Of a DNA stretch of 64,000 nt, positions 30,517 through 49,937 are shown piece after piece. The notes below the pieces were generated by a model. That model worked only from the letters and a program-made list of their open reading frames with translations. It did not search any database and was not told where the DNA came from. Position 1 is the stretch's first letter. Every line of letters begins with the position of its first letter. The stretch lies in contig NZ_CP069396.1 in NCBI RefSeq assembly GCF_016887565.1, positions 2,693,001 through 2,757,000 on the forward strand. Reading direction: 5' to 3'. The stretch is from Archangium violaceum (GTDB taxonomy: Bacteria > Myxococcota > Myxococcia > Myxococcales > Myxococcaceae). A program made the position numbers and the translations under genes.

Positions 30517-30543
30517 GCTGCGAGCGCCTGGCGTGGCTCAGGC
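30511..30543. terminator. bidirectional stem-loop over two convergent stops
   Basis: GCCTGAGC and GCTCAGGC form a perfect 8-bp inverted repeat with a 17-base loop. The repeat covers the stop codons of the P450 gene and of the convergent NtrC-type gene. Confidence 0.45.
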
Positions 30544-31899
30544 GCGGATGCGGGGAATGCCCAGCCGCTGGCGCTTCTCCCAGAGCGCCTTGCGGCTGAT
30601 GCCCAGCCGGCGCGCCAGCTCCGTCTCCCCCAGCTTGTCCTGGTGCTCCAACACGAAGCGGCGGAAGTACTCCTCCAGCGAGTCCGGTGAGGCGCTGCCC
30701 TCGATGCCGGGCTCTGGCAGCTCGTGCGTCTCGAAGGTGATGTTGCCACCGGGCTCCAGCGCGAGCAGCCCGGGCGTGACGAGCGGGCCATCGGCGAGGA
30801 TGACGGCGCGCTCGATGGCGTTCTCCAGCTCGCGCACGTTTCCGGGCCAGGGGTGCGTGGTGATCGTTGTGAGCGCCTCGGGCGAGAAGGTGGCGGGCGG
30901 CCGGTTGAGCCGCTGGCACGCCCTCTCCAACAGATGCTTCGCGAGCGCCGGGATGTCCTCGCCGCGCTCGCGCAGGGGCGGCAGCTTGATCTCCACCACG
31001 CGCAGCCGGAAGTAGAGATCCTGCCGGAATGCGCCCTCCTGGACGCGCTTGGGCAGGTCCCGGTGAGTGGCGGCGACGATGCGCACGTCCACCTTGCGCG
31101 AACGGGTGGCTCCCACGCGTCGCACCTCGCCGTCCTGCATCATCCGCAGCAGGCGGGCCTGGGCGGGGGCGGGCAGCTCGCCAATCTCGTCGAGGAAGAG
31201 CGTTCCTCCGTCCGCGCTCTCCACCAGGCCCGCGTGCGCGGTCTGCGCTCCGGTGAAGGCCCCCTTCTCGTGGCCGAACAGCTCGGACTCCAGCAGGCCC
31301 TCGGGGATGGCGGCGCAGTTGACGGCCACCAGCGGGCCATCGCGCCGGGGGCTCTGCGCGTGGAGCGCCCGCGCCACCAGCTCCTTGCCGGTACCGGACT
31401 CGCCCAGCACCAGCACCGTGGCAGGCGAGGCGGCCACCTTGCGGATTCGCTCGAAGGCGTCGCGCATGGCCAGGCAGTTGCCCACCATCCCGCTCACCGC
31501 GTACGTGCGCTCCACCTCGCGCTTCAGCGCCGCGTTCTGCCGGTTCAGCCGGCCCTCGCGCAGCACGCGCTCCACCTGCAGCAACAGCTCGTCGTGGTCG
31601 AAGGGCTTGGCGATGTAGTCCACCGCTCCCAGCTTCATGGCCTCCACCGCCGAGCGCACCGTGGCGTAGCTGGTCATGATGAGCACCGGCACTCCCGGCG
31701 CCTTGGCGATGACGTCCGTGCCCGCCGCGCCCGGCAGGCGCAGATCGCTCAGGATGAGGTCGAACGTGTCCAGCTCGTGGTTGGCCTCGGCTTCGTGCAC
31801 GGCGCCGGCCTCGGCCACGTCGTGCCCCGCCCGCGTCAACAGGCGGCGCAGCTCGGTGCGGATGACGGGCTCGTCCTCGATGACCAGGATGCGGCTCAT
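30538..31899 (-). CDS. NtrC-family sigma-54-dependent response regulator
   Basis: The 453-residue protein has all the parts of an NtrC/CbrB-type activator. The receiver domain (about 1-120) has the acidic pocket IEDEP and phospho-acceptor Asp52 in LSDLRLPG. The AAA+ domain has Walker A GESGTGKE, the sigma-54 contact loop GAFTGA and Walker B GTLFLDEIGE. A C-terminal helix-turn-helix (ETELARRLGISRKALWEKRQRLG) completes it. It should bind upstream enhancers, contact sigma-54 RNA polymerase and melt promoters using ATP after phosphorylation. It lies just past the end of the polyketide operon, whose promoter is of the sigma-54 type, making it the leading candidate activator. Confidence 0.95.
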   Translation of the reverse strand: MSRILVIEDEPVIRTELRRLLTRAGHDVAEAGAVHEAEANHELDTFDLILSDLRLPGAAGTDVIAKAPGVPVLIMTSYATVRSAVEAMKLGAVDYIAKPFDHDELLLQVERVLREGRLNRQNAALKREVERTYAVSGMVGNCLAMRDAFERIRKVAASPATVLVLGESGTGKELVARALHAQSPRRDGPLVAVNCAAIPEGLLESELFGHEKGAFTGAQTAHAGLVESADGGTLFLDEIGELPAPAQARLLRMMQDGEVRRVGATRSRKVDVRIVAATHRDLPKRVQEGAFRQDLYFRLRVVEIKLPPLRERGEDIPALAKHLLERACQRLNRPPATFSPEALTTITTHPWPGNVRELENAIERAVILADGPLVTPGLLALEPGGNITFETHELPEPGIEGSASPDSLEEYFRRFVLEHQDKLGETELARRLGISRKALWEKRQRLGIPRIRA

Positions 31900-32115: not shown

Positions 32116-32919
32116 TCAGGGCACGGCCACGGCGCTTCCTCCATCCACGCGCAGCAGCGCGCCGTGGATGTAGTTCGCCAGCGGGCTCGCCAGGAAGGCC
32201 ACGGCATGCGCCACGTCCCTCGGCACGCCGATCCGTGCCTGTGGCGTCGGATAGTACTCCTCGACGATGTGTGCCTTGACCTCTTCCCAGGTCTTGCCCC
32301 AGCCACGATGCACTCCCATCATGAACATGTGGGATTGCATCGACTCGGTCTGGATCAGTCCCGGGCTGACCGTGTTCACGGTGATGCCCGAGTCTGCCAG
32401 CTCGAGCGCGAGGCTCGCGGTCAGGTGGTTCATGGCGGCCTTGGAGGCGCCATAGGCGGCCATGTCCGCGAGCGGGCGGGTCGATACGTTGCTCGAGATC
32501 TGGATGATTCTCCCGAAGCGTGCCTCCTTCATCGCGGGGACGAGCGCGTGGATGAGCTCGATCGAGGCCACGACGTTGATGCGGTAGGTCCGCTGCCACT
32601 CCTCGGGGGGCGGAGTGAACCAGCCGGGCATGGCGAAGCCAGGGGCGTTGTTGACGAGAATGTCCACCCCGCCGAGCCGTTCCCGGGCCTCCGCCGCGAG
32701 GCGCCATCCCGCTCCTGACGGCTCGAGGTCGACGACGAGGGGGACTGCTCGCCCGCCAGCGTCGCGGATGGATTGGGTGATGGCCTGCACGCGCTCGGCG
32801 TTGCGGCCGTGGATGGCCACGGTGGCGCCTTCGGCCGCCAGGGTCCGGGCGATCTCCTCGCCAATGCCCATGCTGCTGCCAGTGACGAGGGCGCGCTTGC
32901 CCTCGAGTTCCAGATTCAT
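32116..32919 (-). CDS. short-chain dehydrogenase/reductase, last gene of the PKS operon
   Basis: The 267-residue SDR has the cofactor loop TGSSMGIGEE, the NNA structural motif (VNNAPGF), catalytic Ser in ISSNVS, and the YGASK Tyr-Lys pair. The C-terminal half carries a substrate loop (HMFMMGVHRGWGKTWEE) typical of 3-ketoacyl or polyketide reductases. It follows the flavoenzyme gene by 34 bases, and GGAGG precedes ATG 32919. As the last gene in the operon it is likely a tailoring reductase or dehydrogenase acting after cyclisation. It is less related to actIII-type ketoreductases than the gene at 39921-40712. Its substrate is inferred. Confidence 0.88.
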   Translation of the reverse strand: MNLELEGKRALVTGSSMGIGEEIARTLAAEGATVAIHGRNAERVQAITQSIRDAGGRAVPLVVDLEPSGAGWRLAAEARERLGGVDILVNNAPGFAMPGWFTPPPEEWQRTYRINVVASIELIHALVPAMKEARFGRIIQISSNVSTRPLADMAAYGASKAAMNHLTASLALELADSGITVNTVSPGLIQTESMQSHMFMMGVHRGWGKTWEEVKAHIVEEYYPTPQARIGVPRDVAHAVAFLASPLANYIHGALLRVDGGSAVAVP

Positions 32920-32953
32920 GGAGCCTCCATGTCTTCGCTTCGGGAGGAGTCGC

Positions 32954-34540
32954 TCAGGCCACCAGGCGCTCGAAGTCGATGCCCAGGTCCTGACAGAGGA
33001 TTTGTGCCGAGGCGCGGCCACTGCCCGCGCTGATGCTGCCGCCTGGGTGGGTGCTCGAGCCCGTCATGTAGAGCCCGTCGATGGGGGTGCGGTACTGGCC
33101 CCAACCCGGCAGCGGCCGCAGGGCCATCGACTGGAAGAGGTAGTTACCGAGGTGTGTCGATTCCCCCTCGATGAAGGCGGCGTTGCGGCGCTCGATCTCC
33201 CGCGGGTTGATGATCTTCCGGTGGATGAGGTTCGACGCGCTCATGTTGGTCGTGTGCCGCTCCAGGTGCGAGAGCACCTCGTTGGCCACTCCCATCTCGA
33301 TTTCATCCCACTTCTCCGCTCCCTGCTCGAGGTGGTAGGGCGCGTAGCAGTGCAGGTAGCCGGTGTGCTTGCCGGGCGGTGCGCGCGTGGGATCGAACAG
33401 CGTCTGCGTGACCATGGCTGGCACGTCCGGCCGGAGCTGGCCGCGCTGGAGATCATCGAAGTAGCGGCGGAACTCCCTCCGTGTCGCGGGAGAGAATTCG
33501 ACCATGGCGGAGCGATTGACCTCCTCACCGGCCTTGTAGCGGGGCGCCTCCTCGAGGGCCATGAGCTGGCAGAAGGACTGGAAGGGATTGATCTTCAGGC
33601 GGCGCACCCGGTGGGGCATCTCGGAGGGCAGCTCCTTGGGGTCGAGCATCCCGAGGAAGAGCTGCTTGACGTTGACGCCGGACACCACGGCCCGCCGCGC
33701 CGTGAGCGTCTCGCCCGTCTCGAGCTCCACCCCGGTCGCCTTCCCGCCCTGTACGAGGATCCGCCGCACGCCACTCCGGGTGCGCACCGTGGCTCCGTGG
33801 TCACGCAGACATTCCGCCAGCTTGTCGACGAGCACCCCGCTTCCTCCCTCGGGCACGCCGATGCCGAAGCGGTGGATGAACGGGGTGAGCATGTAGAGAT
33901 GGCTCCCCGTGCCCACCTCGTGCGGATCGAAGATGACCTCGCTGGCCTGGCGGGCCATGGCGATCTTGAGCCGGTCATCCTCGAACCACTCGTCGAGCAG
34001 CTGCATGCCGCTCAGCATCAAGGCATGCATCGTCTCCCGTCCCGCGTCGCTCTGGTCGAGCATCGAGAAGAGCTGTCCGGTGGGCGGACAGGCGGAGAAC
34101 ATCGTGGGCAACATCATCTCCAGCCCGTCCCCCGCCCATGCGCAGAAGCGCTTGTAGGCATCCGCGTCACGGGCCGAGAACTTCTCGGCGATCGATGCGC
34201 AGGTGCGATCGATGTCGCGGTAGCAGATGAAGGAGCTGTCGTCGGGAAAGACGACCGAGTAGAGGATGTCCGGGTAGTGATACTTGAGCCCGTACTTCGA
34301 CATCAGCCCCAGCTCGTCGTCGAGGAGGAGCGGGTTGGCCTGGATGGTGATGTGGCAGGTCGACGCGGGGTCGGACTTGAATCCCGGGCCGCACAGCTCG
34401 CGAGTCACGCAGCCGCCACCGAGCCCGCCACTCTTCTCGAGGACACAGACGTCGAGCCCCGCCTTGGCCAGATAGGCCGCGGCGGTCATGCCGTTGTGGC
34501 CGGAGCCAATGACAATCACATCGTAGGAGGGGTTCTTCAT
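32954..34540 (-). CDS. phytoene-desaturase-like FAD oxidoreductase
   Basis: The 528-residue flavoenzyme opens with the dinucleotide motif GSGHNGMTAAAYL. Its C-terminal FAD block GLYMTGSSTHPGGSISAGSGRA is the CrtI/CrtN hallmark, and a Tyr/His-rich middle follows. The family includes carotenoid desaturases and isomerases, as well as FAD oxidoreductases in polyketide pathways. As no carotenoid genes are present, I infer a role in oxidising the polyketide. It begins four bases after the stop of the asparagine-synthetase-type gene, so translation is probably coupled. Three consecutive tailoring genes (amidotransferase, this enzyme, SDR) form the distal part of the operon. Confidence 0.87.
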   Translation of the reverse strand: MKNPSYDVIVIGSGHNGMTAAAYLAKAGLDVCVLEKSGGLGGGCVTRELCGPGFKSDPASTCHITIQANPLLLDDELGLMSKYGLKYHYPDILYSVVFPDDSSFICYRDIDRTCASIAEKFSARDADAYKRFCAWAGDGLEMMLPTMFSACPPTGQLFSMLDQSDAGRETMHALMLSGMQLLDEWFEDDRLKIAMARQASEVIFDPHEVGTGSHLYMLTPFIHRFGIGVPEGGSGVLVDKLAECLRDHGATVRTRSGVRRILVQGGKATGVELETGETLTARRAVVSGVNVKQLFLGMLDPKELPSEMPHRVRRLKINPFQSFCQLMALEEAPRYKAGEEVNRSAMVEFSPATRREFRRYFDDLQRGQLRPDVPAMVTQTLFDPTRAPPGKHTGYLHCYAPYHLEQGAEKWDEIEMGVANEVLSHLERHTTNMSASNLIHRKIINPREIERRNAAFIEGESTHLGNYLFQSMALRPLPGWGQYRTPIDGLYMTGSSTHPGGSISAGSGRASAQILCQDLGIDFERLVA

Positions 34541-34544
34541 GGAT

Positions 34545-36485
34545 TCATGAAATTTGGGATTGGAGGCCGAACCGCTGCTGGAGGACACACGCGCTGAGGG
34601 CGGCCAGGAGGATGGGGTCCAGCGCGTTACGGGTGGGAAGGTCCATGCCAGGCAGCCGGTCGAGCAGGGCGAGGACCTTCTGGGGCTCATAGAAGGGCAG
34701 GGCTCGGAAGGCCGGTCCCCGCAGTGAGTCCTGCACCAGCTCGTAGAACCGGCTCCCCTGCGACAGGGTCGACGGAGGCGCCATGAACGGGTGTTTCTGT
34801 CGCCGGTAGACGGCGTCCGTCAGCACGGGCCGTGCCGCCTCGCGCAGCACGTACTTCTCCGTCGTGCCGCGGATCTTCTGCGAGATGGGGAACGTCCGCG
34901 CGAGCTCCACCAGGGGGTGGTCGAGGAACGGCAGCCGACCCTCGATGGAGTTGGCCATCTCCATCCGGTCTCCCAGCAGGCTCAAGACGTAGTTGGGAAG
35001 CCCGCATTTGGACCAGAGATACAGCGACTGGTTGACGGGCGCTCGCCCGGTGAGCTGGCCGCGCACATCCAATCCGCCGAGGAACAGGCGGTAGGCGTCC
35101 CGCCCGGCGAAGTGTGTCGCGAACCGCTGGGAGAAGAGGCCTCGGCTGTGGGTCGCGATGTTGGAGAAGCTCGCGAGGAACGAGGGGACGAACCCGAGCA
35201 CCCGCGAGATGCTGGCGTTCTCGGGGTTGTTCGCATCGGGCAGCAGGGTGCCACGCGAGACCTGGTTCGCGGCCCGGAGCTCCTCCAGGGCCCGCTCGAT
35301 GGCCGCTGGATCCTGACCCCGCTTGTCGTGGAGCAGCATGTCCCGGCGGAAGTGCGGGTAGCCGGCGAGCACCTCATCGGAGCCCTCTCCCGTGAGGACG
35401 ACCTTGTAGCCCGCCTTCCGCACGGCGCGGCTGAGCATGAACTTGGCGACGCTGTTGGCATTGATGAGGAAGGACTCCCCGTGCCAGACGGCATCCGCGA
35501 AGTGGTCGGCGAGATCCTCCTGGCGCACGGGAATGGGCGTGAAGCGCGCGCCCGCCTTCTTCGCCATCTCTTCGGCGATGGAGGACTCGTCATACTCGGG
35601 ACGGTCGAATCCGAGCGTGAAGGCGTGGATGGGCTTGCCGCATTGCCGCTGCGCCAGGCCCAGCACGGCACACGAGTCCAACCCGCCGCTCAGGTACATG
35701 CCCACGGGGACGTCCGCGTGGAGGCGCAGGCGGATGGCCTCGTCCAGGGCCGTACGGAACCGCTCGACGTACGTCTCCGTCTCCTGGGGAGCCGCCTGTG
35801 TTTCCTCGGTCGGATAGTCGAAGTCCCAGTACTTCAGGAGCTGGAACTGTCCCTCCGTCGCCAGCCCATAGTGCCCGGGAGGAACCTGGTGGATGCCCTC
35901 GAAGAGGGTCCTGTCCTGGAGCGGGTTGAGCAGGTGGTGGAACTGGAAGACGGACTCATGATCCCACCGGGCGGGCACGCCGGCGGCGAACAGGGCCTTG
36001 GCCTCCGAGGCGAAATACAGCGTGTCGCCGTGCCGGGCGTAGAAGAGGGGCTTGATGCCGAAGCGGTCCCTCGCCACGAAGAGCAACCGGTTGCGCTCGT
36101 CCCACAGCACCAGGGCGAACTCGCCCCTCAGGTGGTGGAGGCATTGCGGACCATACTCCTCATACAGGTGGAGGACGATCTCGCTGTCGGAGCGGGTGCG
36201 GAAGCGGTGCCCGCGCTCCTCCAGCTCACGCCGGATGCGCTGGAAGTCGTAGAGCTCGCCATTGACGACCACTCGCAGGGATTCGTCTTCGTTGGTGAGC
36301 GGCTGATCTCCGGTGCTGAGATCGATGATGCTGAGCCGGGCATGCCCCAGCCCGACGCGCCCGTCTCCCCGGAGCCAGTACCGCTGCGCGTCGGGACCGC
36401 GATGGTGAAGGGCACGCGTGGCGCCAGCCAGTACGTCTGGGGAAATGGGCCCTTCCTTGGACAACAGGGCGACGAATCCACACAT
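34545..36485 (-). CDS. asparagine-synthetase-type glutamine amidotransferase in the PKS operon
   Basis: The 646-residue protein has a class II glutaminase domain starting at the catalytic Cys2 (MCGFVALL) with HRGPDAQ. The synthetase domain has the ATP loop LSGGLDSC, then TGEGSDEVLAGY. Length and order match AsnB. Its place between the ACP synthase and the flavoenzyme, deep inside a type II PKS operon, suggests a role like that of OxyD in oxytetracycline synthesis, which makes an amidated (malonamoyl) starter. It could instead amidate a carboxyl group of the product, or be asparagine synthetase carried along. Distinguishing these needs biochemistry. It starts at an ATG after GTGAGGATGT. Confidence 0.88.
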   Translation of the reverse strand: MCGFVALLSKEGPISPDVLAGATRALHHRGPDAQRYWLRGDGRVGLGHARLSIIDLSTGDQPLTNEDESLRVVVNGELYDFQRIRRELEERGHRFRTRSDSEIVLHLYEEYGPQCLHHLRGEFALVLWDERNRLLFVARDRFGIKPLFYARHGDTLYFASEAKALFAAGVPARWDHESVFQFHHLLNPLQDRTLFEGIHQVPPGHYGLATEGQFQLLKYWDFDYPTEETQAAPQETETYVERFRTALDEAIRLRLHADVPVGMYLSGGLDSCAVLGLAQRQCGKPIHAFTLGFDRPEYDESSIAEEMAKKAGARFTPIPVRQEDLADHFADAVWHGESFLINANSVAKFMLSRAVRKAGYKVVLTGEGSDEVLAGYPHFRRDMLLHDKRGQDPAAIERALEELRAANQVSRGTLLPDANNPENASISRVLGFVPSFLASFSNIATHSRGLFSQRFATHFAGRDAYRLFLGGLDVRGQLTGRAPVNQSLYLWSKCGLPNYVLSLLGDRMEMANSIEGRLPFLDHPLVELARTFPISQKIRGTTEKYVLREAARPVLTDAVYRRQKHPFMAPPSTLSQGSRFYELVQDSLRGPAFRALPFYEPQKVLALLDRLPGMDLPTRNALDPILLAALSACVLQQRFGLQSQIS

Positions 36486-36532: not shown

Positions 36533-36997
36533 TCAGAAGGAGAGCGACTCCACCGACTCGCTCTCCTCGGACAGCAACTCATCGGCGGCCGAGCGTCTGT
36601 CGAAGAGCGGGTACTCCATGGGGCTGGGACCCTCGGCGACGACCATGGCCACGGCGAACCCGGCGCTGTGGCTCAAGCTCAGCTTGAACCGGTGGATGCC
36701 GAGCTGCTGGGCGATCTGGTGCGCGGCCCCGGACAGCCGGAGCTCGGGCTTTCCGTCGGCGGCACTGAGCACCTCCAGCTCGTGCCAGTGCAGTCCCTCG
36801 GGGGCCCCGAGCGCCTTGATGACGGCCTCCTTCGCCGCGAAGCGCGCCGCGAAGTGCTGCCCTGGCTGCTTGCGGCCACGGCAATACGTCCGCTCCGCCT
36901 CGGTGAAGACTCGCTCCTCGAACCGCCCGTCATGCCTTTCCAACGCCCTGGACAGGCGCCCGATCTCGCACAGATCGATTCCGATGCCGATGACCAT
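36533..36997 (-). CDS. holo-[ACP] synthase, dedicated phosphopantetheinyl transferase
   Basis: The 154-residue AcpS-type enzyme has the metal-binding start IGIGIDLCEI and FAAKEAVIKALG, where the catalytic glutamate and lysine sit. GGGAG precedes the start. It transfers phosphopantetheine from CoA to a serine of the acyl carrier protein. The family is usually about 125 residues; here an acidic C-terminal tail of about 28 residues is added (SESVESLSF). It lies 84 bases downstream of the ACP gene and so is almost certainly its partner. An AcpS-type rather than Sfp-type enzyme in a PKS operon is a minor oddity. It may be specific to this ACP. Confidence 0.92.
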   Translation of the reverse strand: MVIGIGIDLCEIGRLSRALERHDGRFEERVFTEAERTYCRGRKQPGQHFAARFAAKEAVIKALGAPEGLHWHELEVLSAADGKPELRLSGAAHQIAQQLGIHRFKLSLSHSAGFAVAMVVAEGPSPMEYPLFDRRSAADELLSEESESVESLSF

Positions 36998-37081: not shown

Positions 37082-37318
37082 TCAGGGCTTCGCCGACATG
37101 AGCGAGTAGAGGTCGCCGACGGTCTTCAGCTTCTTCTCGACCCCGTCGTCGATCTCGACATTGAAAGCCTTCTCCAGGGCGCTGCAGATCTCGACCATCT
37201 CGGTCGAGTCCACATCCAGATCGTCCTTGAGGGAGATCCTGGCGTTGATCTCCTCGATCTTCCGCTCGAGCAGGTTGGACAGGATGCTGTTGATCTTCGA
37301 TTCGACCTCTTGCGGCAT
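37082..37318 (-). CDS. acyl carrier protein of the type II PKS
   Basis: The 78-residue acidic protein has the four-helix ACP pattern. The phosphopantetheine-accepting serine is Ser38 in DLDVDSTEMVE, a variant of the DSL signature with Thr after Ser. It starts after a GAGGA ribosome site and lies 36 bases downstream of the chain-length factor. The ACP, KS-alpha and KS-beta form the minimal polyketide synthase, with the growing chain attached to this serine. The length fits both PKS and FAS carriers; its place in the operon makes it a PKS carrier. Confidence 0.92.
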   Translation of the reverse strand: MPQEVESKINSILSNLLERKIEEINARISLKDDLDVDSTEMVEICSALEKAFNVEIDDGVEKKLKTVGDLYSLMSAKP

Positions 37319-37354: not shown

Positions 37355-38602
37355 CTACCTGCCCGAGTCGCGGCGGATGACCAGGGACGCGTTCATGCCG
37401 CCGGAGCCGCGCGAGTTGATCAGGACGGCATCCAGCTGGTTGACGGCGGTGGCCTGGGTGACCACGGACAATCCCAGACTCGGATCCTGCTGCTTCAGGC
37501 CGACCGTGGGCGGGAGCTGGCGGTGCTCGAGGGCCAACGCGCCCCAGGCCGTGTCCAGCGCCCCGGCCGCCCCATACAGGTGGCCGGTCATGGACTTGGG
37601 TGCAGTCACGGGCAGGCGGTGGCGGAGGTCTCCGAACACCTTCTGGATGGCGGTGGCCTCCTGCTGGTCTCCTTCCCGGGTGGCGAGCCCGTCCGCCAGC
37701 AACAGGTGGATGTCCCTGGGCTCGAGCCCGGCATCCTTCAAGGCGCCGGACATGGCGCGCGACAGGCCTCCCTCCTCGGGAGGGAGCGTGGCCGGGTGGC
37801 ACGCGTCGCTCGACAGGCCGAAGCCGTCGATCTCCGCGTAGACATGGGCACCGCGCCGCAGGGCGTGCTCCCGCTCCTCGAGCAGCAGGAAGGTGGCGCC
37901 CTCACCCGGCAGCAGGCCCTGCCGCGACACGTCGAACGGGCGGTAGGCCCGGGGCGCGGTGGCGTCCTGACCCCCGGCGATCACTCCTTCCGTCACGCAG
38001 GCCAGGTAGGCGAAGGGCGTGAGGGGGGCTTCCGCTCCACCCGCGAGGATGATGTCCGCGGAGCCCTGGGCGATCGTGCGCGCCGCATAGCCGATGCTCA
38101 CCAGGCCGCTGGCGCGGTCACACACCAGCGTCTTGCTGTGGCCCCGGAGCTCGAACAGGATGGAGATCTGCCCCTGCGGAGCGGCGGGGAACCATGCTGT
38201 CGCCTGGAAGGGGCTGAGCTCCTTGTAGCCCAGGGTGTGAAGCTTGCGCAGCTCCCGGTCGGTGAAATCCCAGCCACCGAGGCAGTTGCCCACGAAGACA
38301 CCGAAGCGCTCGCGGTCGACCTTCTGCAGGTCGACCGAGCCATCCTCCAGCGCGAGCTTCGACGCGGCCACCGAATACTGGGTGTACGGGTCGAGCTTGC
38401 GTGCCAACCGCATGGGCATGAAGTCGGAGGGGCTGAAGGCCTCCAGCGCGCCTCCTTCCCAGCCGGAGCGCTCCGCCAGCGGGTCGCCGGTGAGGGGGCG
38501 GATGGACTGCTTCCCAGAGAGGGTACTCGCCCAGGCGTTGCGTTTGCCGATACCGCCAGGGGTGATCATTCCAAGGCCAGTGATGACGACGCGGCGGCTC
38601 AT
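37355..38602 (-). CDS. KS-beta / chain-length factor of the type II PKS
   Basis: The 415-residue ketosynthase-like protein has lost two of three catalytic residues. Aligned with the KS-alpha, the active-site Cys position is Arg163 (in CDRASGLVSIG), and the first catalytic His is replaced by Asp304 (in LADGLATREGD). The second His remains (KSMTGHLYG). This is the expected state of a chain-length factor, the inactive partner that pairs with KS-alpha and sets the number of extensions; classical members have Gln at the Cys position, so Arg is unusual. Its start overlaps the KS-alpha stop by four bases (ATGA), which secures equal dosage. Confidence 0.93.
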   Translation of the reverse strand: MSRRVVITGLGMITPGGIGKRNAWASTLSGKQSIRPLTGDPLAERSGWEGGALEAFSPSDFMPMRLARKLDPYTQYSVAASKLALEDGSVDLQKVDRERFGVFVGNCLGGWDFTDRELRKLHTLGYKELSPFQATAWFPAAPQGQISILFELRGHSKTLVCDRASGLVSIGYAARTIAQGSADIILAGGAEAPLTPFAYLACVTEGVIAGGQDATAPRAYRPFDVSRQGLLPGEGATFLLLEEREHALRRGAHVYAEIDGFGLSSDACHPATLPPEEGGLSRAMSGALKDAGLEPRDIHLLLADGLATREGDQQEATAIQKVFGDLRHRLPVTAPKSMTGHLYGAAGALDTAWGALALEHRQLPPTVGLKQQDPSLGLSVVTQATAVNQLDAVLINSRGSGGMNASLVIRRDSGR

Positions 38603-39894
38603 CGCAGACCTCCAACGAAATCAGGGTTCGAGAAGACGACGGCGCTGTGGATGCCAGAGAAACCGCTCGCCTCCTTGAGGACGACATCGAGCTTCTGCTG
38701 GATGCTCTTGTTGGGCACGTAGTGCAGGTCGCAGGCCGGGTCGGGCGTCTCGTAGTTGATCGTCGGAGGGAGCTTCCCGGTGTGCAGGGCGAGCAGGGCC
38801 GAGATGCTCTCGAGGACGTTGGCGGCGGCCAGGGGGTGGCCCACCATGGACTTCAGCGAGCTGACGTGGATTTCATAGGCGTGCTTGCCGAGCACCTCCT
38901 TGAGCGCCGTCGTCTCGTTGACGTCGTTCTGCCGGGTGGAGCTGCCGTGCGCGGAGACGTAGCTGATCTCCTGGGGGCGGACGCGGGCGTCCTCGAGGGC
39001 CGCGCGCAGGGCCCGCGCCAGGTCGTGACCGTCCGGCGGCAGGTCCGTCATGTGGAAGGCGTTGTTGCAGGAGCCGAACCCTCGCACCTCGGCGTAGATG
39101 GGGGCGTTGCGCCGCAGGGCGTGCTGGCGCTCCTCGAGGATGAGGATGCCGGCACCCTCGCCGAGCACGAAGCCGTCGCGGTCGGCATCGAAGGGACGCG
39201 ACGCCTGGTGCGGAGCGGCGTTGCGCTTGCTGGAGAGCGCGCCGACGACGTCGAAAGCTCCCATGGCGATGGGGGTGATGGGCGCCTCGGAGGCACCGCA
39301 GATCATCACGTCCGCCTCGTTCGAGCGGATGCGGTCCAGGGAGAACCCGATGGCATCCAACCCCGCGGTGCAGCCGGTGCTCAGGGTGAAGCAGGGCCCG
39401 AATGCCTTGTACTCGGTGGCGAGCTCCGCCGAGGCCACGTTGAAGGTGGCGCCCTGGTAGAGCCAGCGCTGTGCCCACGCTCCGTTCAGGGGCGCGGTGC
39501 CCCCCTCGGTGAGCACCAGGAACTCCTCCTCCATGAAGCGGGTGCCGCAGATGGCGTTGGCCACGCACACGCCCAGCCGCTCGTGGTCCAGCTTCTGGAA
39601 GTCGATCTTCGAGTCCCCCGTGGCCATGCGCGCCGCCGCCAGGGCGAACTGGGCATAGCGGTCCAGCCGGCGGATCTGCTCCTCCTTCAGCCCGAGATCC
39701 CGCGGCCGGAAGTCCTTCACCAGTCCGGCGATCCTGGACCTCAGTCCATCGAGCGGGAACCGGTCCACCTCGAAGATGCCGGACCTTCCCTCCAGGGTGT
39801 TGCTCCAGAAATCGTTCAGGCCGATCCCGTTCGGGGCGATGATGCCCATCCCGGTAACGACGACACGTCGCTCTTTGTTGTTATGTGTTTTCAC
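38599..39894 (-). CDS. KS-alpha, catalytic ketosynthase of the type II PKS
   Basis: The 431-residue enzyme has the catalytic triad Cys175 (LSTGCTAGLDAIG), His316 (SAHGSSTRQND) and His353 (SMVGHPLAAAN). It condenses malonyl-ACP units into the poly-beta-ketone chain as a heterodimer with the adjacent KS-beta. The GTG start at 39894 was picked because it precedes the first conserved block RRVVVTGMGI and matches the end of the ketoreductase gene 26 bases upstream. It is the best marker for the cluster: the CTAGLDAIG and GEGAG blocks place it with type II PKS and related KS enzymes rather than FabF. Confidence 0.94.
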   Translation of the reverse strand: MKTHNNKERRVVVTGMGIIAPNGIGLNDFWSNTLEGRSGIFEVDRFPLDGLRSRIAGLVKDFRPRDLGLKEEQIRRLDRYAQFALAAARMATGDSKIDFQKLDHERLGVCVANAICGTRFMEEEFLVLTEGGTAPLNGAWAQRWLYQGATFNVASAELATEYKAFGPCFTLSTGCTAGLDAIGFSLDRIRSNEADVMICGASEAPITPIAMGAFDVVGALSSKRNAAPHQASRPFDADRDGFVLGEGAGILILEERQHALRRNAPIYAEVRGFGSCNNAFHMTDLPPDGHDLARALRAALEDARVRPQEISYVSAHGSSTRQNDVNETTALKEVLGKHAYEIHVSSLKSMVGHPLAAANVLESISALLALHTGKLPPTINYETPDPACDLHYVPNKSIQQKLDVVLKEASGFSGIHSAVVFSNPDFVGGLR

Positions 39895-39920: not shown

Positions 39921-40712
39921 CTAGTAGTTGCCCAGACCGCCGCAGATGTTGATGGCCTGCGCGGTGATGCCCCTGGCGTGGTCGGAAGCGAGGTAGGCCA
40001 CCATGTCCGCCACCTCCTCGGGGGTGATGTAGCGGCCGATGGGAACGCGCTGCTCGATGCGCTTCTTGGCCTCTTCCACCTGTACGCCCCAGATGCGCGC
40101 GTAGTTGCCGCGGACCTTCTCGGCCATCCCGGTCTCCACGAAGCCCGGACACACCGCGTTGACCGTGATGCCCTTGCTCGCCAGCTCCAGGCCCAGCGAC
40201 TTGGTGAAGCCCACCACGCCATGTTTGGACGCGCTGTAGGGGGCGCCATGGAGGACGCCCTGCTTGCCGCCCGTCGAGGCGATGTTGATGATGCTCTGGA
40301 GAGAGGGGCTGGCCTTGAGCACCGCCTTGGTGGCGTAGAAGACGCTGTTCAGGTTGGTCTCGATGACCTCCCGCCACAGCTCATCCTCCACCTCGCTGGT
40401 GGTGCCACCGCCGGGGCGGCCCGCGTTGTTGACGAGCACCTCGATGCCTCCCAGCGAGGAGACCACGTCATTCACCATCGAGTAGATGGACTGCGGCGAG
40501 CGCACGTCGCACTGGGCGATGACCGCCCGGACGCCAAACGCTCGAATCTCGGAGGCCACCTCCTCGAGCTGCTCACGCGTACGCGCCGCGAGCGCCACGT
40601 CGAATCCATCCTTCGCCAGCCGCAGGGCCGCCGCCTTGCCAATGCCGCGACCCGCCCCCGTCACCAGCGCCCGCTTCCGGTTGTTGCTCTCGTTCCTGGC
40701 CGTCTGCTGCAT
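39921..40712 (-). CDS. actIII-like C-9 ketoreductase of the type II PKS
   Basis: The 263-residue SDR has TGAGRGIG, NNAGRPGGG (the PGG motif at residues 100-102), catalytic Ser146, Tyr159 and Lys163 (PYSASKHG), and the C-terminus ICGGLGNY. These blocks, including the PGG and the GLGNY end, match the actinorhodin ketoreductase ActIII closely. ActIII reduces the C-9 carbonyl of the nascent chain in an NADPH-dependent step coupled to first-ring closure. I therefore predict a C-7/C-12 cyclised, C-9 reduced aromatic intermediate. This match to an actinomycete family is the clearest sign that the whole operon makes an aromatic polyketide. Confidence 0.93.
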   Translation of the reverse strand: MQQTARNESNNRKRALVTGAGRGIGKAAALRLAKDGFDVALAARTREQLEEVASEIRAFGVRAVIAQCDVRSPQSIYSMVNDVVSSLGGIEVLVNNAGRPGGGTTSEVEDELWREVIETNLNSVFYATKAVLKASPSLQSIINIASTGGKQGVLHGAPYSASKHGVVGFTKSLGLELASKGITVNAVCPGFVETGMAEKVRGNYARIWGVQVEEAKKRIEQRVPIGRYITPEEVADMVAYLASDHARGITAQAINICGGLGNY

Positions 40713-40754: not shown

Positions 40755-41714
40755 TCAGGCTGACAGCCGCTTCTGGATGGCCTGCATGGTTCCGCGGCTG
40801 TTGGCGTTGATGGCCTTCTCGACGCGGTCGAGTGCCTCCCCCGCGCTCAGCTCCCCCCAGAACTGCTTCACCTTGTCGGGCTTGAGCTCGACCAGGTGCC
40901 GGGAGGTGACGCGCACTCCGCCGGAGACCGGCTCCAGCAGCCACTCGCCGGTGTGGATGCGAATCAACGGAGGGGGCTCGGACTGGAAATAGGAGACGCA
41001 GGAGGAGGGATTGCAGTGGCGCACGGTGCGGATGCGCTCCTGGCCAGCCTGGGTGGACACGGTCATGATGAACTCCTGGTGGTGGCCGTCGTCGTAGACC
41101 ATCTCCACGGAGTGGCAGTGGGGCAGGAGCCTGGGCCACTCGTCCGCCCGCTTCAGCAGCTCGAAGATGGCCTCGGGCCGGGCGGCGATGACCAGCTGCT
41201 CCTCGAACTGCCTGCGCCACGCATGGGTGGCGCTCTTGGAAGGATCTCGCTCGAGGTATTCCTTGATGGCGGACAGCTCACGCTGGCTGTTGGTGTCCAC
41301 CGAGCGCGTCATGAACTCCAGCGCCTCCCTCGGGTTGGTGACGCCCTGGATGCCGTGGTTGGGGTCGAGCTGCTCCTTGATGTCGAAGCGATGCTCCAGC
41401 ACCACCAGGGTGCCCTTGCGCAGGGGGAAGAAATGCCAGACACCTTCCATCCAGCTCAGCAGGGGAGAGGGCTTGACCTGCCGGAAGGTGATGACACGCG
41501 AGTCGCGGAAGAGCTCCCGCCGCGAGCGCCAGGTCATCGGCTGGCCGTTGGCCAGCGCGGTGAGCTCGATGAGCTGAGAGCGCTCGTCTTGCTCGATGAC
41601 CTTGGCGGCCTTGCACGGCGGGAAGATCTGGGGCCAGCGCTCGACCTCCAGACAGAGCTTGTAGGCGGCCTCGACGTCGGCATCGATCTCGATATGGTGT
41701 TCCATCAGGTGCAT
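40755..41714 (-). CDS. two-domain aromatase/cyclase (SRPBCC x2)
   Basis: The 319-residue protein contains two START/SRPBCC domains, roughly residues 1-150 and 165-310. Each starts with a short acidic helix and has W-P-x-x-x-P-x-C (EVERWPQIFPPCKAAKV and ADEWPRLLPHCHSVEM), the typical entrance of aromatase/cyclases such as ActVII and TcmN. These enzymes close and aromatise the first ring of polyketide chains without cofactors. ATG 41714 follows GGAGAGGAG; M24 is an alternative start. It is 42 bases ahead of the ketoreductase. Didomain enzymes are normally found with reducing (C-9 ketoreductase) systems, which fits. Confidence 0.92.
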   Translation of the reverse strand: MHLMEHHIEIDADVEAAYKLCLEVERWPQIFPPCKAAKVIEQDERSQLIELTALANGQPMTWRSRRELFRDSRVITFRQVKPSPLLSWMEGVWHFFPLRKGTLVVLEHRFDIKEQLDPNHGIQGVTNPREALEFMTRSVDTNSQRELSAIKEYLERDPSKSATHAWRRQFEEQLVIAARPEAIFELLKRADEWPRLLPHCHSVEMVYDDGHHQEFIMTVSTQAGQERIRTVRHCNPSSCVSYFQSEPPPLIRIHTGEWLLEPVSGGVRVTSRHLVELKPDKVKQFWGELSAGEALDRVEKAINANSRGTMQAIQKRLSA

Positions 41715-41733
41715 CGGTGTCTCCTCTCCTGCG

Positions 41734-42597
41734 TCAGACAATCGCCACGACGCGGCACCAGGCCGCGTCGGCACGCGCCAACTTCACTGGGAAGCACGCC
41801 ACCTTGAATCCATGGGGCTGGCTGATCCCTCCCAGATTGGCCAGCCGCTCGAGCTGGCAGTACTCGCGCTCCCGGCCGAAGAGATGGGCGGGCCACAACT
41901 CTCCCGGGTCCCGGGTGCGCAGGTAGGCGTTGATCATCCGGGGGAAGGGCGCGTCGAAGCCGAAGCTGTCGATGCCAATCACCCGGATTCCCTGCTCGAT
42001 GAGCCAGGCCGTGGCGGCGCGAGTGACACCCCGGAAGTGGGTGAAGTACTCGCGCTTGCCCAGATGGGCATCCCCGCCGGTGTACAGCAGCACCACGTCG
42101 AGCGGCTTGAGGCGGTAGTCGATCCGCTCGAGCGCGGCGGCCACCTCCTGCTGGGTGACGGGTCCCTGCTCCGCCGGCCCGCGGACATCCAGCACCACCC
42201 CATCGCGGAAGCACCACTCCAGGGGGACCTCACAGATGGTGCGCGCCTTCTCCCCCTGGGCATTCTTGTCGCCGTAGTGGAACGGCGCGTCCATGTGGGT
42301 TCCCGTGTGGGTCGTCAGGTAGTAGTGCATCAACGACAGACCCTTGCCGTCCGGGAAGTTGCGATGGTCGAGCCCCTTGCCGAGGTGGTGTTTGAGCCAC
42401 TCGCGGACCGTGGCGAACCAGGAGCCACGCACCGCGTGGATGAGGCCCTTGCCGAGCAGGTCGGCCCCCTTCCGGTGGTCGATGTATTTGACCGTGACGG
42501 GCTCTGGCTCCCAGTACCGTGGATCCACGGGAACGCTCAGATCGATGAACCGTTGCGCGGGGCTGGACGCGGAAGTCCGCGAGGCTGGAGAAGACAT
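41734..42597 (-). CDS. PF04199-type cyclase (metal-dependent, kynurenine-formamidase fold)
   Basis: The 287-residue protein has the metal-site motif HTGTHMDAPFHYG, with the usual HxGTHxDxPxH order, and a DSFGFD segment near the end. The PF04199 family was named after cyclases of polyketide antibiotic clusters, although it includes isatin hydrolases and kynurenine formamidase. Here its position between an aromatase/cyclase and a hydrolase makes a later ring-closure or lactone/ester step likely. It lies 16 bases after the hydrolase gene. The exact step cannot be told from sequence. Confidence 0.88.
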   Translation of the reverse strand: MSSPASRTSASSPAQRFIDLSVPVDPRYWEPEPVTVKYIDHRKGADLLGKGLIHAVRGSWFATVREWLKHHLGKGLDHRNFPDGKGLSLMHYYLTTHTGTHMDAPFHYGDKNAQGEKARTICEVPLEWCFRDGVVLDVRGPAEQGPVTQQEVAAALERIDYRLKPLDVVLLYTGGDAHLGKREYFTHFRGVTRAATAWLIEQGIRVIGIDSFGFDAPFPRMINAYLRTRDPGELWPAHLFGREREYCQLERLANLGGISQPHGFKVACFPVKLARADAAWCRVVAIV

Positions 42598-42613: not shown

Positions 42614-43789
42614 TCAGCGCCGGGCGCCGGCAGGGAGGGGAGCGGTGGCTCCGAGCTTCTGGGCCATCCAGTCGCCGAAGCGCGGGATGAAGTCCGCGAA
42701 GTAGTTGGTGCTCACATGCCGCTCACGGGGATAGGAGATGAGCTCGAATCCACCCCGGGCCCAGTCCTTGAAACGCTTGCAGGCGACGAAGGGGAAGACG
42801 TTGTCCTGCTCGCCATGGATGCACAGCAGCGGGGCGGTGAGGGCGGGGGCGTCGTTCAAGTGCAGACGCTCACGGGCCAGGAGGTTCATCGCCTCGTCGT
42901 CCTTCTGCTTGAAGACGAAGCGGAAGTCCGTGCGAACCCGGGGGTTGATGCTCAGGTAGTTCTCGAGGTCGAAGGTGCCGGCCAGATTGATGCAGGCCTT
43001 GATGTCCTGGGGGTGGAAGGCCGCCGCCCGGCTGGCCAGATATCCGCCGTAGCTCACCCCGAAGATGCCGATCCGGTTCAGGTCGATGCCACTGTTGCCG
43101 CGCATCTTCCGCAGCACGGCTCCCACCACGTGCTCGAAGTCGGGCGTCAGCGGCTCCACGCCGATGAGCTCACCCTGGCCAGGGCCGTCGAAGAGCATCA
43201 CCGCCATGCCCCGCGCCAGGAACGTCTGGGCGAACACGAAGAGCTCGACCTCCTTGGCCGAGTCCAGACCATTGACGAGGATGACGCAGGGGTGGGGGCC
43301 CGGGGTGGCCGGGCGCATGAAGTAGGCCGGCAGGGCGTGGCCCTTGTACGCCACGGTGAGCGGCTCCGTGGGGTACTCCAGATAGGGGATGGCCCGGTGG
43401 AAGACGCGGGTGACCCACATGCGCGTCTCGTGCTTGAGTGGCGGGTTGTCGAAGTACATGAACTCCGCGAAGTGGCCGGCGGCCGCGGCCTTGAGCAGCC
43501 ATTGCCGGGCCGTGAGGTGGTGGCCCGCGGCCAGGGCCTTCTCCGCGGACTGCTCGTAGTCCTTCCCGAGCTTCAGCCAACGGTCATGCCAGTCCCGCCA
43601 GTCGACCTTGCCCGGGGCGCCGGGCTTGAAGCCCTCCAGCGCGATGGTGGCGTCTCCCCAGTCCAGCCCGGCGAAGACCAGGCGCGTGAAGAACGCCTCC
43701 CAGGCGTGGAAGGCTTCCACTGGAAGGCTCCGGGTCTGCGGGAGCTCGTTCGATACGGACTGGCCAGGGTCTTTCGCCACGTTCTGCAT
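42614..43789 (-). CDS. FrsA/AntI-like alpha/beta hydrolase in the PKS operon
   Basis: The 391-residue hydrolase has a 150-residue helical cap and then the catalytic fold. The nucleophile is Ser246 (FGVSYGGYLAS), the acid is probably Asp329 (HGEQDNVFP), and the base is His358 (RERHVSTN). Oxyanion-side residues are in LVNGLDS. The cap-plus-fold plan is that of FrsA/DUF1100 esterases and of AntI, the hydrolase of the Photorhabdus anthraquinone cluster that trims and releases the chain. I infer a similar chain-shortening or release function. AAGGAG precedes the start. It is the fourth gene of the operon. Confidence 0.88.
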   Translation of the reverse strand: MQNVAKDPGQSVSNELPQTRSLPVEAFHAWEAFFTRLVFAGLDWGDATIALEGFKPGAPGKVDWRDWHDRWLKLGKDYEQSAEKALAAGHHLTARQWLLKAAAAGHFAEFMYFDNPPLKHETRMWVTRVFHRAIPYLEYPTEPLTVAYKGHALPAYFMRPATPGPHPCVILVNGLDSAKEVELFVFAQTFLARGMAVMLFDGPGQGELIGVEPLTPDFEHVVGAVLRKMRGNSGIDLNRIGIFGVSYGGYLASRAAAFHPQDIKACINLAGTFDLENYLSINPRVRTDFRFVFKQKDDEAMNLLARERLHLNDAPALTAPLLCIHGEQDNVFPFVACKRFKDWARGGFELISYPRERHVSTNYFADFIPRFGDWMAQKLGATAPLPAGARR

Positions 43790-43827: not shown

Positions 43828-44274
43828 TTACTGGCGCTCGGCCCAGTCCTTGAGGTGCGTGAGCACCTGCGCGGTGTTGGAGTAGACGTTCCGCCCCAGC
43901 TCCTCCCGGGCCTGCACGGTGGGCTGCGCCGGCTCGAAAGTGTGGATGACCACCAGCTTGGAGCCACCCTCACAGGGCTCGACGCTCCAGGTGCCGTGCA
44001 TTCCAGCGAACTGGGGCGGCACGGTGATCATCTTGAACTGGATGTGCTGACGCTCGTGCGCATAGTGGCGGTGCGAGCGGATGGTGTTGGTGCCGAAGGC
44101 GTTGCGGACCGTCATCTCCATGATGACCTCTCGCGTGTCCGCGCCCACCGCGCTCTGCTTCACCGACAGACAGGTGGGGAAGACCTGGGGCCAGGACTCC
44201 ACCTGCGTACAGCAGCGATAGACGATGTCGGGGGTCTGCTTGATGATGATCTCGTTCTTGACGGAGGTTTCCAT
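43828..44274 (-). CDS. single-domain SRPBCC cyclase/aromatase
   Basis: The 148-residue protein has one START/SRPBCC domain (VYRCCTQVESWPQVFPTCLSV, then YAHERQHIQFKM). It shares its opening pattern with the halves of the two-domain aromatase/cyclase, suggesting duplication from the same ancestor. Its likely role is folding or aromatising a later ring. ATG 44274 was chosen; an in-frame ATG at 44319 would add 15 residues. It is 38 bases ahead of the hydrolase and 91 bases behind the membrane protein gene. Confidence 0.87.
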   Translation of the reverse strand: METSVKNEIIIKQTPDIVYRCCTQVESWPQVFPTCLSVKQSAVGADTREVIMEMTVRNAFGTNTIRSHRHYAHERQHIQFKMITVPPQFAGMHGTWSVEPCEGGSKLVVIHTFEPAQPTVQAREELGRNVYSNTAQVLTHLKDWAERQ

Positions 44275-44365
44275 GGCGGATTCCGGGAGTGGCTCTCCCC
44301 ATCCGCCGGCTGGCGGCAACGAGGAGAGGAGGTGGGTTCGAGGCGAAAGACGGTCGCGGCTGGGA

Positions 44366-44824
44366 CTACTCGATTCTGGAAGTCTGGCGGGGGATGAGCC
44401 TGCCGCTCAGATTGAAGCCATCCCGCATCATCAGGGTGAGCAGGTAGATGTTGGTTGCCCCCGCGAGGATTTCCACGAGCTGGAGCACCGTGAACAGCGT
44501 GCCGAAGGAGCCACGTAGCGCCAGCATGTAGAGCGTGATGGCCAGGGGGGTCAGCACCAGAAATCCATTGGAGGCGATGAACCGCATCCGGGCCTGCTTC
44601 TTCTGGATGAGGGCGCTCTTGCGGTTGGCGGCCAGCGAGCGCCCCACCGCCGCCGTCGCGATCATGCAGGGAACCGCGAAGACGAGCGCATAGGCGATGT
44701 AGCGTTTGGCGGCGAGGATCCAATCCGTCCTGCCCGAGAGCTCGACGATGCTGGACGTGATGAAGAAGCTCAGGATGAGGAGGAGCGCGGTCGTGCCGAG
44801 GATGGCGTGGATGCGGTTCTTCAT
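44366..44824 (-). CDS. four-helix membrane protein of unknown function, second gene of the PKS operon
   Basis: The 152-residue protein has four membrane helices (about residues 8-25, 42-62, 85-105 and 112-133) with a basic loop between helices 2 and 3 (RSLAANRKSALIQKKQARMR). I recognise no family. It could help export the product, tether the enzyme complex to the membrane, or act as a sensor. The last is suggested by its position right after the promoter, but nothing in the sequence proves it. Ten bases separate it from the small gene upstream. Confidence 0.7.
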   Translation of the reverse strand: MKNRIHAILGTTALLLILSFFITSSIVELSGRTDWILAAKRYIAYALVFAVPCMIATAAVGRSLAANRKSALIQKKQARMRFIASNGFLVLTPLAITLYMLALRGSFGTLFTVLQLVEILAGATNIYLLTLMMRDGFNLSGRLIPRQTSRIE

Positions 44825-44834
44825 GTCGTGGCGC

Positions 44835-45032
44835 TCACTGTCCCTTGTGCGTGCCGTCGCTCTCGAGGCCGGCGGCCGGCGGGACCTGCTGTTTCAGATC
44901 ATTGATGACGAAATCGAGGATCTCGTTGGCGACAGCGATGATCTGTTGCGCTGTGTAGCCATTGTCCCTCAATTGCAGGATGAATCCTCGGACGGTGCTC
45001 TCGGAGTTGTGAGACTTTGCCATGGCCAGCAT
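44835..45032 (-). CDS. 65-residue protein of unknown function, first gene of the PKS operon
   Basis: A short acidic/polar protein (MLAMAKSHNSESTVRGFI...) with a helical middle (YTAQQIIAVANEILDFVINDL). It has no signal or membrane segment. There are two ATGs: 45032 and 45023. It is the first coding region after the sigma-54 promoter and the MarR-type operator, so its expression is under direct control. The role is unknown; a helper for folding or assembly of the PKS, or a leader-type regulator, is possible. It ends ten bases before the membrane protein gene. Confidence 0.6.
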   Translation of the reverse strand: MLAMAKSHNSESTVRGFILQLRDNGYTAQQIIAVANEILDFVINDLKQQVPPAAGLESDGTHKGQ

Positions 45033-45163
45033 GTGAACTTTCTGTGAACCGGTAACGCCGGATGGAGAGGGCGTGCGCGGAGGTGCTCACACGTCAGGCT
45101 TTTGACGTGTTGATGGCTTTTGAGAACGTGAGAGAGTGGAGAAGTCCGCTCTCACTGATTTTT

Positions 45164-45177
45164 ATTGTGCAGACAAT
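45164..45177. promoter_or_regulatory. MarR-type operator before the PKS operon
   Basis: ATTGTGCAGACAAT is an inverted repeat (ATTGT-GCAG-ACAAT). It lies about 21-34 bases after the transcription start predicted from the sigma-54 site, where a bound repressor could block elongation. The same motif, TTGTGCGGACAA, recurs at 46253-46264 next to the MarR gene, and a looser copy is at 46206-46217. Confidence 0.65.
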
Positions 45178-45207
45178 CATACCGCTTGGCAATGCTGTTT
45201 TCTTTTG

Positions 45208-45223
45208 TGCAACGCGGGTGCCA
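45208..45223 (-). promoter_or_regulatory. sigma-54 (-24/-12) promoter of the PKS operon
   Basis: On the minus strand the sequence reads TGGCACCCGCGTTGCA. This matches the sigma-54 consensus TGGCAC-N5-TTGCA at every conserved position, with GG and GC separated by ten bases. Transcription should start near 45197, giving a leader of about 165 bases before the first gene at 45032. Promoters of this class need an NtrC-type activator, and one is encoded at 30538-31899. Confidence 0.8.
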
Positions 45224-45280
45224 GCTTCGGGAGATCCTCAAGTCGCCTGGAATGCTAGGAGTGGGAGGAGTTGGGGTGTG

Positions 45281-45341
45281 GCGTCTCCGCGCAGATGTTT
45301 CGTTTCGCGGTTGGAGACCAGCAAAATTTGCGTCTCTCCGC
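45281..45341. promoter_or_regulatory. repeats placed like upstream activator sites
   Basis: GCGTCTCCGC (45281-45290) recurs as GCGTCTCTCCGC (45330-45341), and GCGGTTGGAGAC (45307-45318) is a partial inverted copy. They lie roughly 85-145 bases upstream of the predicted sigma-54 start, where enhancer-binding proteins usually bind. Confidence 0.4.
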
Positions 45342-45478
45342 TTTGGGAGTCTTTGATTTGAGAGTCAATCCCGGGTGATGGTGCACGGCTGTCAGGATTC
45401 AGCCGGCGGCGGCTATCAGTCAGGATTTGAGGGGGAGCTCACGCCCGGGCAGCGGGCGGAGGGGTGTTCCGTCTTCCA

Positions 45479-46205: not shown

Positions 46206-46217
46206 TTGCTCGGACAA
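46206..46217. promoter_or_regulatory. MarR-type operator, looser copy
   Basis: TTGCTCGGACAA matches 9 of 12 positions of the TTGTGCGGACAA copy downstream. Extended, it forms GTTG-N6-CAAC. It lies 24 bases before the DoxX start on the minus strand, so it could repress that operon. Confidence 0.45.
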
Positions 46218-46252
46218 CTATACGGAGAGGGGAGGGGAGGGGCAAGATTCAA

Positions 46253-46264: not shown

Positions 46265-46290
46265 GTGTTTCTGGATAGATGGAGCCGGTC

Positions 46291-46803
46291 ATGTGGCACG
46301 ACAAGGAGAATCGGCGACCCCCTCGATTGGCGCCACCGGCGCGACCGGGCATCATCGATGCGGAGGACGCCGTGGAACTGAACGACCAGCTTGGATACAA
46401 CCTCTATCGCGCAGCGCTCTTGTTCCGTCGAGAGCTCATCCGAGCTTTGAGGGAGCACGACCTCACGCCCGAGCAGTGGCAGACCCTTGCATCCCTCTGG
46501 GCGCACGGCCCGCTGTCTCCCTCGGAGATCGCTCGCGTGACCCTGCAGGATCTCCCCTCCATCTCCCGGATGCTCTCCCGCATGGAGAAGCGAGGGTGGG
46601 TTGGCAGGGTGGAGGATCCGAAGGACGGGCGTTCGTTCCGTGTGGAGCTCACACGGGAGGGGAGCCATCTGCAGACCATCCTGCCTCCCCTCATCTTCGA
46701 GCACTTCGAGGAGGTGCTCGACGGATTCCCCGAGACGCGTCGCCGGAAGCTCCTGGAGCTCCTCCGCGAGCTCCGGCAGGTGCTGGGAGATCCAACCCCC
46801 TGA
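46291..46803 (+). CDS. MarR-family transcriptional regulator
   Basis: The 170-residue protein has the MarR winged-helix domain: LTPEQWQTLASLWAHGPLSPSEIARVTLQDLPSISRMLSR holds the recognition helix, and VEDPKDGRSFRVELT is the wing with the conserved DxRS-x-x-x-x-L-T pattern. ATG 46291 follows GGAG; ATG 46279 adds four residues. MarR proteins usually lose DNA binding when they bind phenolic or quinone ligands or are oxidised. Two matching operators flank its start and a third lies before the polyketide operon, so I infer that it represses both, possibly with the pathway product as inducer. Confidence 0.85.
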   Translation: MWHDKENRRPPRLAPPARPGIIDAEDAVELNDQLGYNLYRAALLFRRELIRALREHDLTPEQWQTLASLWAHGPLSPSEIARVTLQDLPSISRMLSRMEKRGWVGRVEDPKDGRSFRVELTREGSHLQTILPPLIFEHFEEVLDGFPETRRRKLLELLRELRQVLGDPTP

Positions 46804-46807
46804 GCCT

Positions 46808-49772
<2,965 letters not shown>

Positions 49773-49783
<11 letters not shown>

Positions 49784-49937
49784 GGCCGCTCCGGCGCGCG
49801 GCCCACGCTCCGAGTGCGATGACACCGAGCCACACGGCGAAGGGCTGGTACCAGGGCGCGCCCTCGCGCAGCCACAACTGGCGCAGCGGCGAGCCGAAGA
49901 GGAGCGCAGCCACGGTGAACACGAACAGCGAGAGCAT
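49773..49937 (-). CDS. small membrane protein overlapping the CbrA-like gene
   Basis: A 54-residue protein with two hydrophobic segments (MLSLFVFTVAALLFG and YQPFAVWLGVIALGAWA) and a short basic tail. Its stop lies 11 bases inside the kinase gene, so its translation is probably coupled to the kinase. A short overlapping gene, cbrX, occupies the same place in Pseudomonas. GGGGGGAC lies ten bases before ATG 49937; a start at 49973 is also in frame. The function is unknown, but a regulator of kinase amount is likely. Confidence 0.55.

Follow-up and report, generated by a model that had tools for sequence, protein, structure and literature searches.

A -24/-12 element and a candidate MarR operator share the intergenic region upstream of an aromatic polyketide operon in Archangium violaceum

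Genes of the locus

The window, the 64-kb stretch of Archangium violaceum DNA analysed here, carries on its minus strand a run of genes (Table 1) that a preliminary description had called a polyketide operon. This description holds for the genes themselves, which form a genuine aromatic type II PKS operon: the KS-alpha has its active-site cysteine, the chain-length factor is without one and the acyl carrier protein is separate, and it is these three, together with the ketoreductase, the di-domain aromatase/cyclase and the PF04199 cyclase, that lead to the aromatic type II assignment. OxyD, an amidotransferase similar to the one encoded here, helps make the amidated starter unit of oxytetracycline, and because an OxyD-like protein is present an amidated product is possible by analogy. 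The amidotransferase, the PF04199 cyclase and the di-domain aromatase recall the tetracycline gene set, and an amidated tetracycline-like product is conceivable.

Among 96 genomes of the family, an orthologous cluster occupies the same place in one sister species (G004), with a KS-alpha 97% identical to that of the window; the next-best KS-alpha proteins, from G073 and G056 (Pyxidicoccus fallax), are 67% identical. The two orthologous clusters differ in two genes. The 65-aa first gene of G004 carries an insertion of about 140 bp close to its 5' end (L037 near 365), which alters the N-terminus encoded here at 45000-45032, and the true start of this gene is uncertain in both genomes. An extra 444-aa open frame with no Pfam match lies in G004 (L036:5439-6770) between the amidotransferase and FAD oxidoreductase genes, which nearly abut in the window (gap 34541-34544), so that a gene has either been lost from the window's genome or gained in G004. 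More distant relatives of the KS-alpha, at 53-56% identity, are found in Candidatus Omnitrophota and other metagenome-assembled genomes (L003, L005-L009, L011), those on Streptomyces plasmids being more distant still at 47%. A gene of the TsiV type VI secretion immunity protein family (PF11876; 28196-29113, minus strand) adjoins the P450 gene of the cluster. Rfam gave no RNA element within 26-60 kb.

Table 1. Features of the polyketide locus, in window coordinates.
Feature	Position	Strand	Remarks
NtrC-type response regulator, sigma-54 activator (GAFTGA)	30538-31899	-	operon tail; core gene of the family
Second SDR	32116-32924	-	
FAD oxidoreductase, CrtO/CrtI-like	32954-34540	-	below cut-offs
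Asparagine-synthase-like amidotransferase	34545-36485	-	
Phosphopantetheinyl transferase	36533-36997	-	
Acyl carrier protein	37082-37318	-	
Chain-length factor (KS-beta)	37355-38602	-	without active-site Cys
KS-alpha	38599-39888	-	active-site Cys in STGCTAG
Ketoreductase (SDR)	39921-40712	-	
Di-domain aromatase/cyclase	40755-41774	-	closest in PDB: BexL, StfQ
PF04199 cyclase	41734-42597	-	
FrsA-like alpha/beta hydrolase	42614-43789	-	
SRPBCC polyketide cyclase	43828-44319	-	
152-aa protein	44366-44824	-	no family match; hydrophobic, membrane-like by eye
First operon gene, 65 aa	44835-45032	-	no family match
Sigma-70-like pair TTGCCA-17-CACAAT	45164-45192	-	overlaps operator; both hexamers kept in G004
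Candidate MarR operator, core TTGTCTGCACAA, PKS promoter	45165-45176	-	+22 to +33 of predicted start; kept in G004
Best-conserved 30-bp window of 446-bp gap	45194-45223	-	29/30 vs G004; exactly -26 to +4 of predicted promoter
Predicted sigma-54 transcription start (+1)	45197	-	from usual -12 to +1 distance
Sigma-54-type -24/-12 element TGGCACCCGCGTTGCA	45208-45223	-	consensus match, shuffle statistics; consensus bases kept in G004
Degenerate third operator copy TTGTCCGAGCAA	46206-46217	-	abuts doxX -10; exact in G004
Sigma-70-like doxX promoter TTGCCC-17-TATAGT	46217-46245	-	kept in G004
Second exact operator copy TTGTCCGCACAA	46253-46264	-	marR/doxX divergent gap
MarR-family regulator	46279-46803	+	likely start 46290; best NCBIfam match HpaR, below cut-off
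Membrane histidine kinase	46808-49825	-	partner of the regulator in relatives

A -24/-12 element upstream of the operon

The 16-mer that the preliminary description proposed as a sigma-54 promoter is present on the minus strand with its GG (45222-45221) and GC (45210-45209) 10 bases apart, and it does lie 176-191 bases 5' of the first gene, which starts at 45032. Its fit to the consensus is close to, and one base short of, the match at all conserved bases that had been claimed: scored against TGGCACG-N4-TTGC(T/A), as printed in PMC7910581 and PMC9765219, it agrees at 11 of 12 positions, with C in place of G at position 7. Within the window, TGGCACCCGCGTTGCA is the sole zero-mismatch match to TGGCAY-N5-TTGCW. 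TGGCAC-N5-TTGCA occurs once in the 13.2-Mb genome and the backwards-read control also occurs once, so this count proves little by itself. When the 446-bp intergenic region was shuffled 20,000 times with its dinucleotide content kept, a sense-strand match of at least 11/12 arose with P = 0.0013, a value that by our estimate needs a roughly 20-30-fold correction since the site was picked among the many intergenic regions of the window. The match is more than chance would readily give, and because of this correction it is conservation that provides the main evidence.

Conservation was assessed on one genome pair, that of the window and its sister species G004. The intergenic region is 74% identical overall and 72% identical outside 45160-45230, and TGGCAC and TTGCA retain every one of their 11 bases, the lone change in the element falling within the spacer. 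The exact coincidence of the conservation peak with -26 to +4, together with the retention of the consensus bases, makes a functional -24/-12 element likely on the strength of this one pair. A -24/-12 match of comparable quality was not found in the related clusters of G073 and G056.

The base at the end of the -12 box was compared across four genomes of the genus (G000, G002, G003 and G006). TGGCAY-N5-TTGCT occurs 56 times in these genomes, where the four neighbouring spacer lengths average about 13, and TGGCAY-N5-TTGCA twice, where the average is about 17; TTGCA at the correct spacing is therefore not enriched, unlike TTGCT, and TGGCAY-N3-7-TTGCW taken overall does not exceed its backwards control, the signal being confined to spacer N5 with TTGCT. 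These counts (56 T, 2 A) suggest that TTGCT is preferred at -12 at the genus level, and the TTGCA of the window site disagrees with that preference, which is no defining rule because the general consensus permits T or A. When a wider range of spacers was counted in the window's genome, N5 gave 13 T and 1 A and the spacers of the same phase gave on average 5.0 T and 1.25 A, which suggests that codon phase accounts for some of the shortfall in TTGCA. With a simple GC-frame gene caller, 8 of this genome's 13 TTGCT sites are intergenic, mostly close 5' of a gene, and the genome has one match to rpoN; sigma-54 promoters of the canonical form appear to be in use here. The rare -12 variant lowers but does not remove the case for sigma-54, and on balance we lean towards the element working as a sigma-54 promoter.

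A candidate MarR operator and a sigma-70-like pair

Two further elements, both overlooked in the preliminary description, lie just downstream of the predicted start. The first is a palindrome, ATTGT-CTGC-ACAAT, at 45177-45164. The 13.2-Mb genome has just two occurrences of the pattern TTGTCNGNACAA, one at the PKS promoter and one in the gap between marR and the divergent DoxX-like gene, and G004 has one copy at its PKS promoter and two in its marR/doxX gap. Among 145 genomes of the order, the marR gene is present only in the two that bear the cluster. MarR-family repressors can have operators in their own divergent gap and at their target operon, and here likewise the palindromes lie in the divergent gap and at the neighbouring operon: a MarR-regulated promoter should share its palindrome with the regulator's own divergent gap, and the PKS promoter does. 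This regulator differs from the known ones in scoring below the curated cut-off for every named MarR subfamily, and its presumed target is a polyketide operon with a -24/-12 element. We consider the operator at the PKS promoter to be the best-supported regulatory element found, with its binding by MarR predicted from the sequence.

The second element is the sigma-70-like pair that overlaps the operator, whose spacer is conserved at 12 of 17 positions between the window and G004. At doxX the final T of a good sigma-70 -10 hexamer (TATAGT) is also the first base of an operator copy, and at the PKS promoter the operator starts in the same register, at the last T of TATGAT, a hexamer that has a poor -35 and reads CATGAT in G004.

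The flanking two-component pair and the search for activator sites

The locus is flanked by a histidine kinase and an NtrC-type regulator. Forty-eight genomes of the family have the kinase, and by a count from coordinates the regulator gene is adjacent to it, within about 170 bp and on one strand, in 42 of them. What separates the two genes in the window's genome and in G004 is the cluster, accompanied by marR, doxX and a cytochrome c gene; unrelated DNA fills the gap in G002, G003 and G006, and G005 has the two genes on different contigs. The pair is thus split by differing inserts in different species of the genus, which makes this two-component system an insertion hot spot. We rejected the NtrC-type neighbour as a cluster-specific activator by descent since it is a core gene; by its distribution it is an old core gene stranded beside the cluster and no pathway regulator by descent. 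A sodium-symporter-like domain suspected in the kinase gave no match in Pfam.

Conserved blocks upstream of the -24/-12 element (45391-45427 and 45321-45331) contain a direct repeat, AATCCTGAC, with its copies 28 bp apart, and a palindrome, GCAAATTTTGC; neither could be assigned to an activator. The palindrome was dropped as a candidate activator site since it occurs three times in the genome and its backwards control once, an uninformative difference. A search for the tandem half-sites of Nla28 on both strands gave just one half-site-like place, with one mismatch, and no shared binding site for the NtrC-type regulator was found. A leader hairpin, ACACGTCA/TGACGTGT, was discarded since its left arm is not kept in G004.

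Control of the operon

The preliminary description had the sigma-54 promoter driving the operon, which would tie the product to development or nutrient signals. A functional element is upheld by its location, by its fit to the consensus and most of all by its conservation; sole control by sigma-54 is not, since a short way downstream there is a candidate MarR operator specific to the cluster and, overlapping it, a conserved sigma-70-like pair. Control of the operon is probably shared between the sigma-54 element and MarR, and we see about equal grounds for belief and doubt that the 446-bp region 45033-45478 is as a whole a regulated promoter made up of a sigma-54 element, with a start near 45197, and a MarR operator. 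Sigma-54 RNA polymerase would wait at -24/-12 until an activator acting from a distance opened the promoter; MarR bound at the operator would block escape or elongation, as well as any overlapping sigma-70 promoter, and would be freed from the DNA by a ligand, which may be the aromatic product or an intermediate. This model builds on the elements, their conservation and the operator common to the PKS promoter and the marR/doxX gap, which can be read from the DNA, and supposes the use of sigma-54, binding and repression by MarR, a ligand and an activator. In its favour we count the 11/12 sense-strand intergenic match at correct spacing, its uniqueness in the genome, the conservation peak, the N5 enrichment in the genus, the presence of rpoN, the operator pattern with its copies in G004 and the distribution of marR; against it stand the TTGCA at -12, the single genome pair, the sufficiency that the sigma-70-like pair could have by itself and the lack of an assignable activator site.

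The strongest alternative, somewhat unlikely in our judgement, is that the operon is transcribed from an ordinary MarR-repressed sigma-70 promoter, TTGCCA-17-CACAAT, with a start near 45157, and that TGGCAC...TTGCA is kept as an activator or UP-type site. Both hexamers are kept in G004, and their overlap with the operator is the classical geometry of a repressor; a copy of the operator abuts the -10 of the neighbouring doxX promoter, and the genus shows no enrichment of the TTGCA form. However, CACAAT is a weak -10 whose conservation the operator accounts for, the spacer is poorly kept, and the conservation peak lies exactly on the -24/-12 element.

A narrower form of the shared-control model has the flanking kinase and NtrC-type regulator specifically activating the -24/-12 element. 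The regulator has a sigma-54 interaction domain and stands at the operon tail on the same strand, and the flanking layout is identical in G004; but the core gene lies next to the kinase in most family genomes, PKS or no PKS, and the unrelated DNA that fills the gap in three other species means that the location can be accidental, which, with no common binding site found, leaves this activation improbable. Still more speculative, and to be regarded as a long shot, is an evolutionary extension of it, in which a core kinase and its sigma-54 activator were parted by the acquisition of the PKS operon, which has come under that two-component system through the -24/-12 element, with the co-acquired MarR as a product-sensing gate, giving two inputs on one promoter. 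Least probable is that the 16-mer arose by chance and has no role as a promoter, which the equal genome and control counts and the missing TTGCA excess in the genus would allow but which fits poorly with an intergenic, sense-strand site at a plausible distance on the regional conservation peak.

Relation to known systems

Sigma-54 control of natural-product genes is already published (PMC7910581, PMC3665592). Four natural-product loci of Myxococcus xanthus (MXAN1286, 1579, 1603 and 3778) were tested for sigma-54/Nla28 promoters (PMC7910581), and like the present locus they are myxobacterial natural-product genes with a -24/-12 element close by. They belong to NRPS or NRPS/type I PKS systems, and their promoters are mostly intragenic, verified by mutation and accompanied by Nla28 sites (PMC7910581), whereas the locus described here is a type II PKS with an intergenic element, one Nla28-like half-site and a candidate MarR operator downstream. 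Sigma-54 promoters have been predicted in 69% of PKS/NRPS clusters, in an analysis where a randomised E. coli genome still gave 18.4% of genes as positive, and sigma-54 acts on the oxytetracycline cluster, a type II PKS, in E. coli (PMC3665592). The oxytetracycline case thus places sigma-54 on a type II PKS as we propose here, but it is heterologous and depends on over-expression of sigma-54 (PMC3665592), whereas the element described here is native and conserved between two species.

Pyxidicyclins, aurachins and aggregicyclins are products of myxobacterial type II PKSs (PMC13213394). The clusters of this group, including the uncharacterised one of Pyxidicoccus fallax DSM 14698, whose KS-alpha is 67% identical to ours, combine KS-alpha, chain-length factor and acyl carrier protein with cyclases as here; the amidotransferase, FAD oxidoreductase and MarR of our cluster have no match in the stretches of P. 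fallax and G073 that were compared. Sigma factors and regulators go unmentioned in the main text of the aggregicyclin paper (2026), and the aggregicyclin cluster needed another host and foreign promoters for its expression (PMC13213394).

Few type II PKS clusters of myxobacteria have been characterised, and such clusters can be silent. The MarR operator and the sigma-54 element suggest routes by which the cluster of A. violaceum may be activated, namely deletion of marR, addition of aromatic ligands or supply of an activator. If confirmed, the locus would be a native type II PKS case of sigma-54 control, to set beside the evidence that we found for such control, which comes from NRPS/type I loci and one heterologous case.
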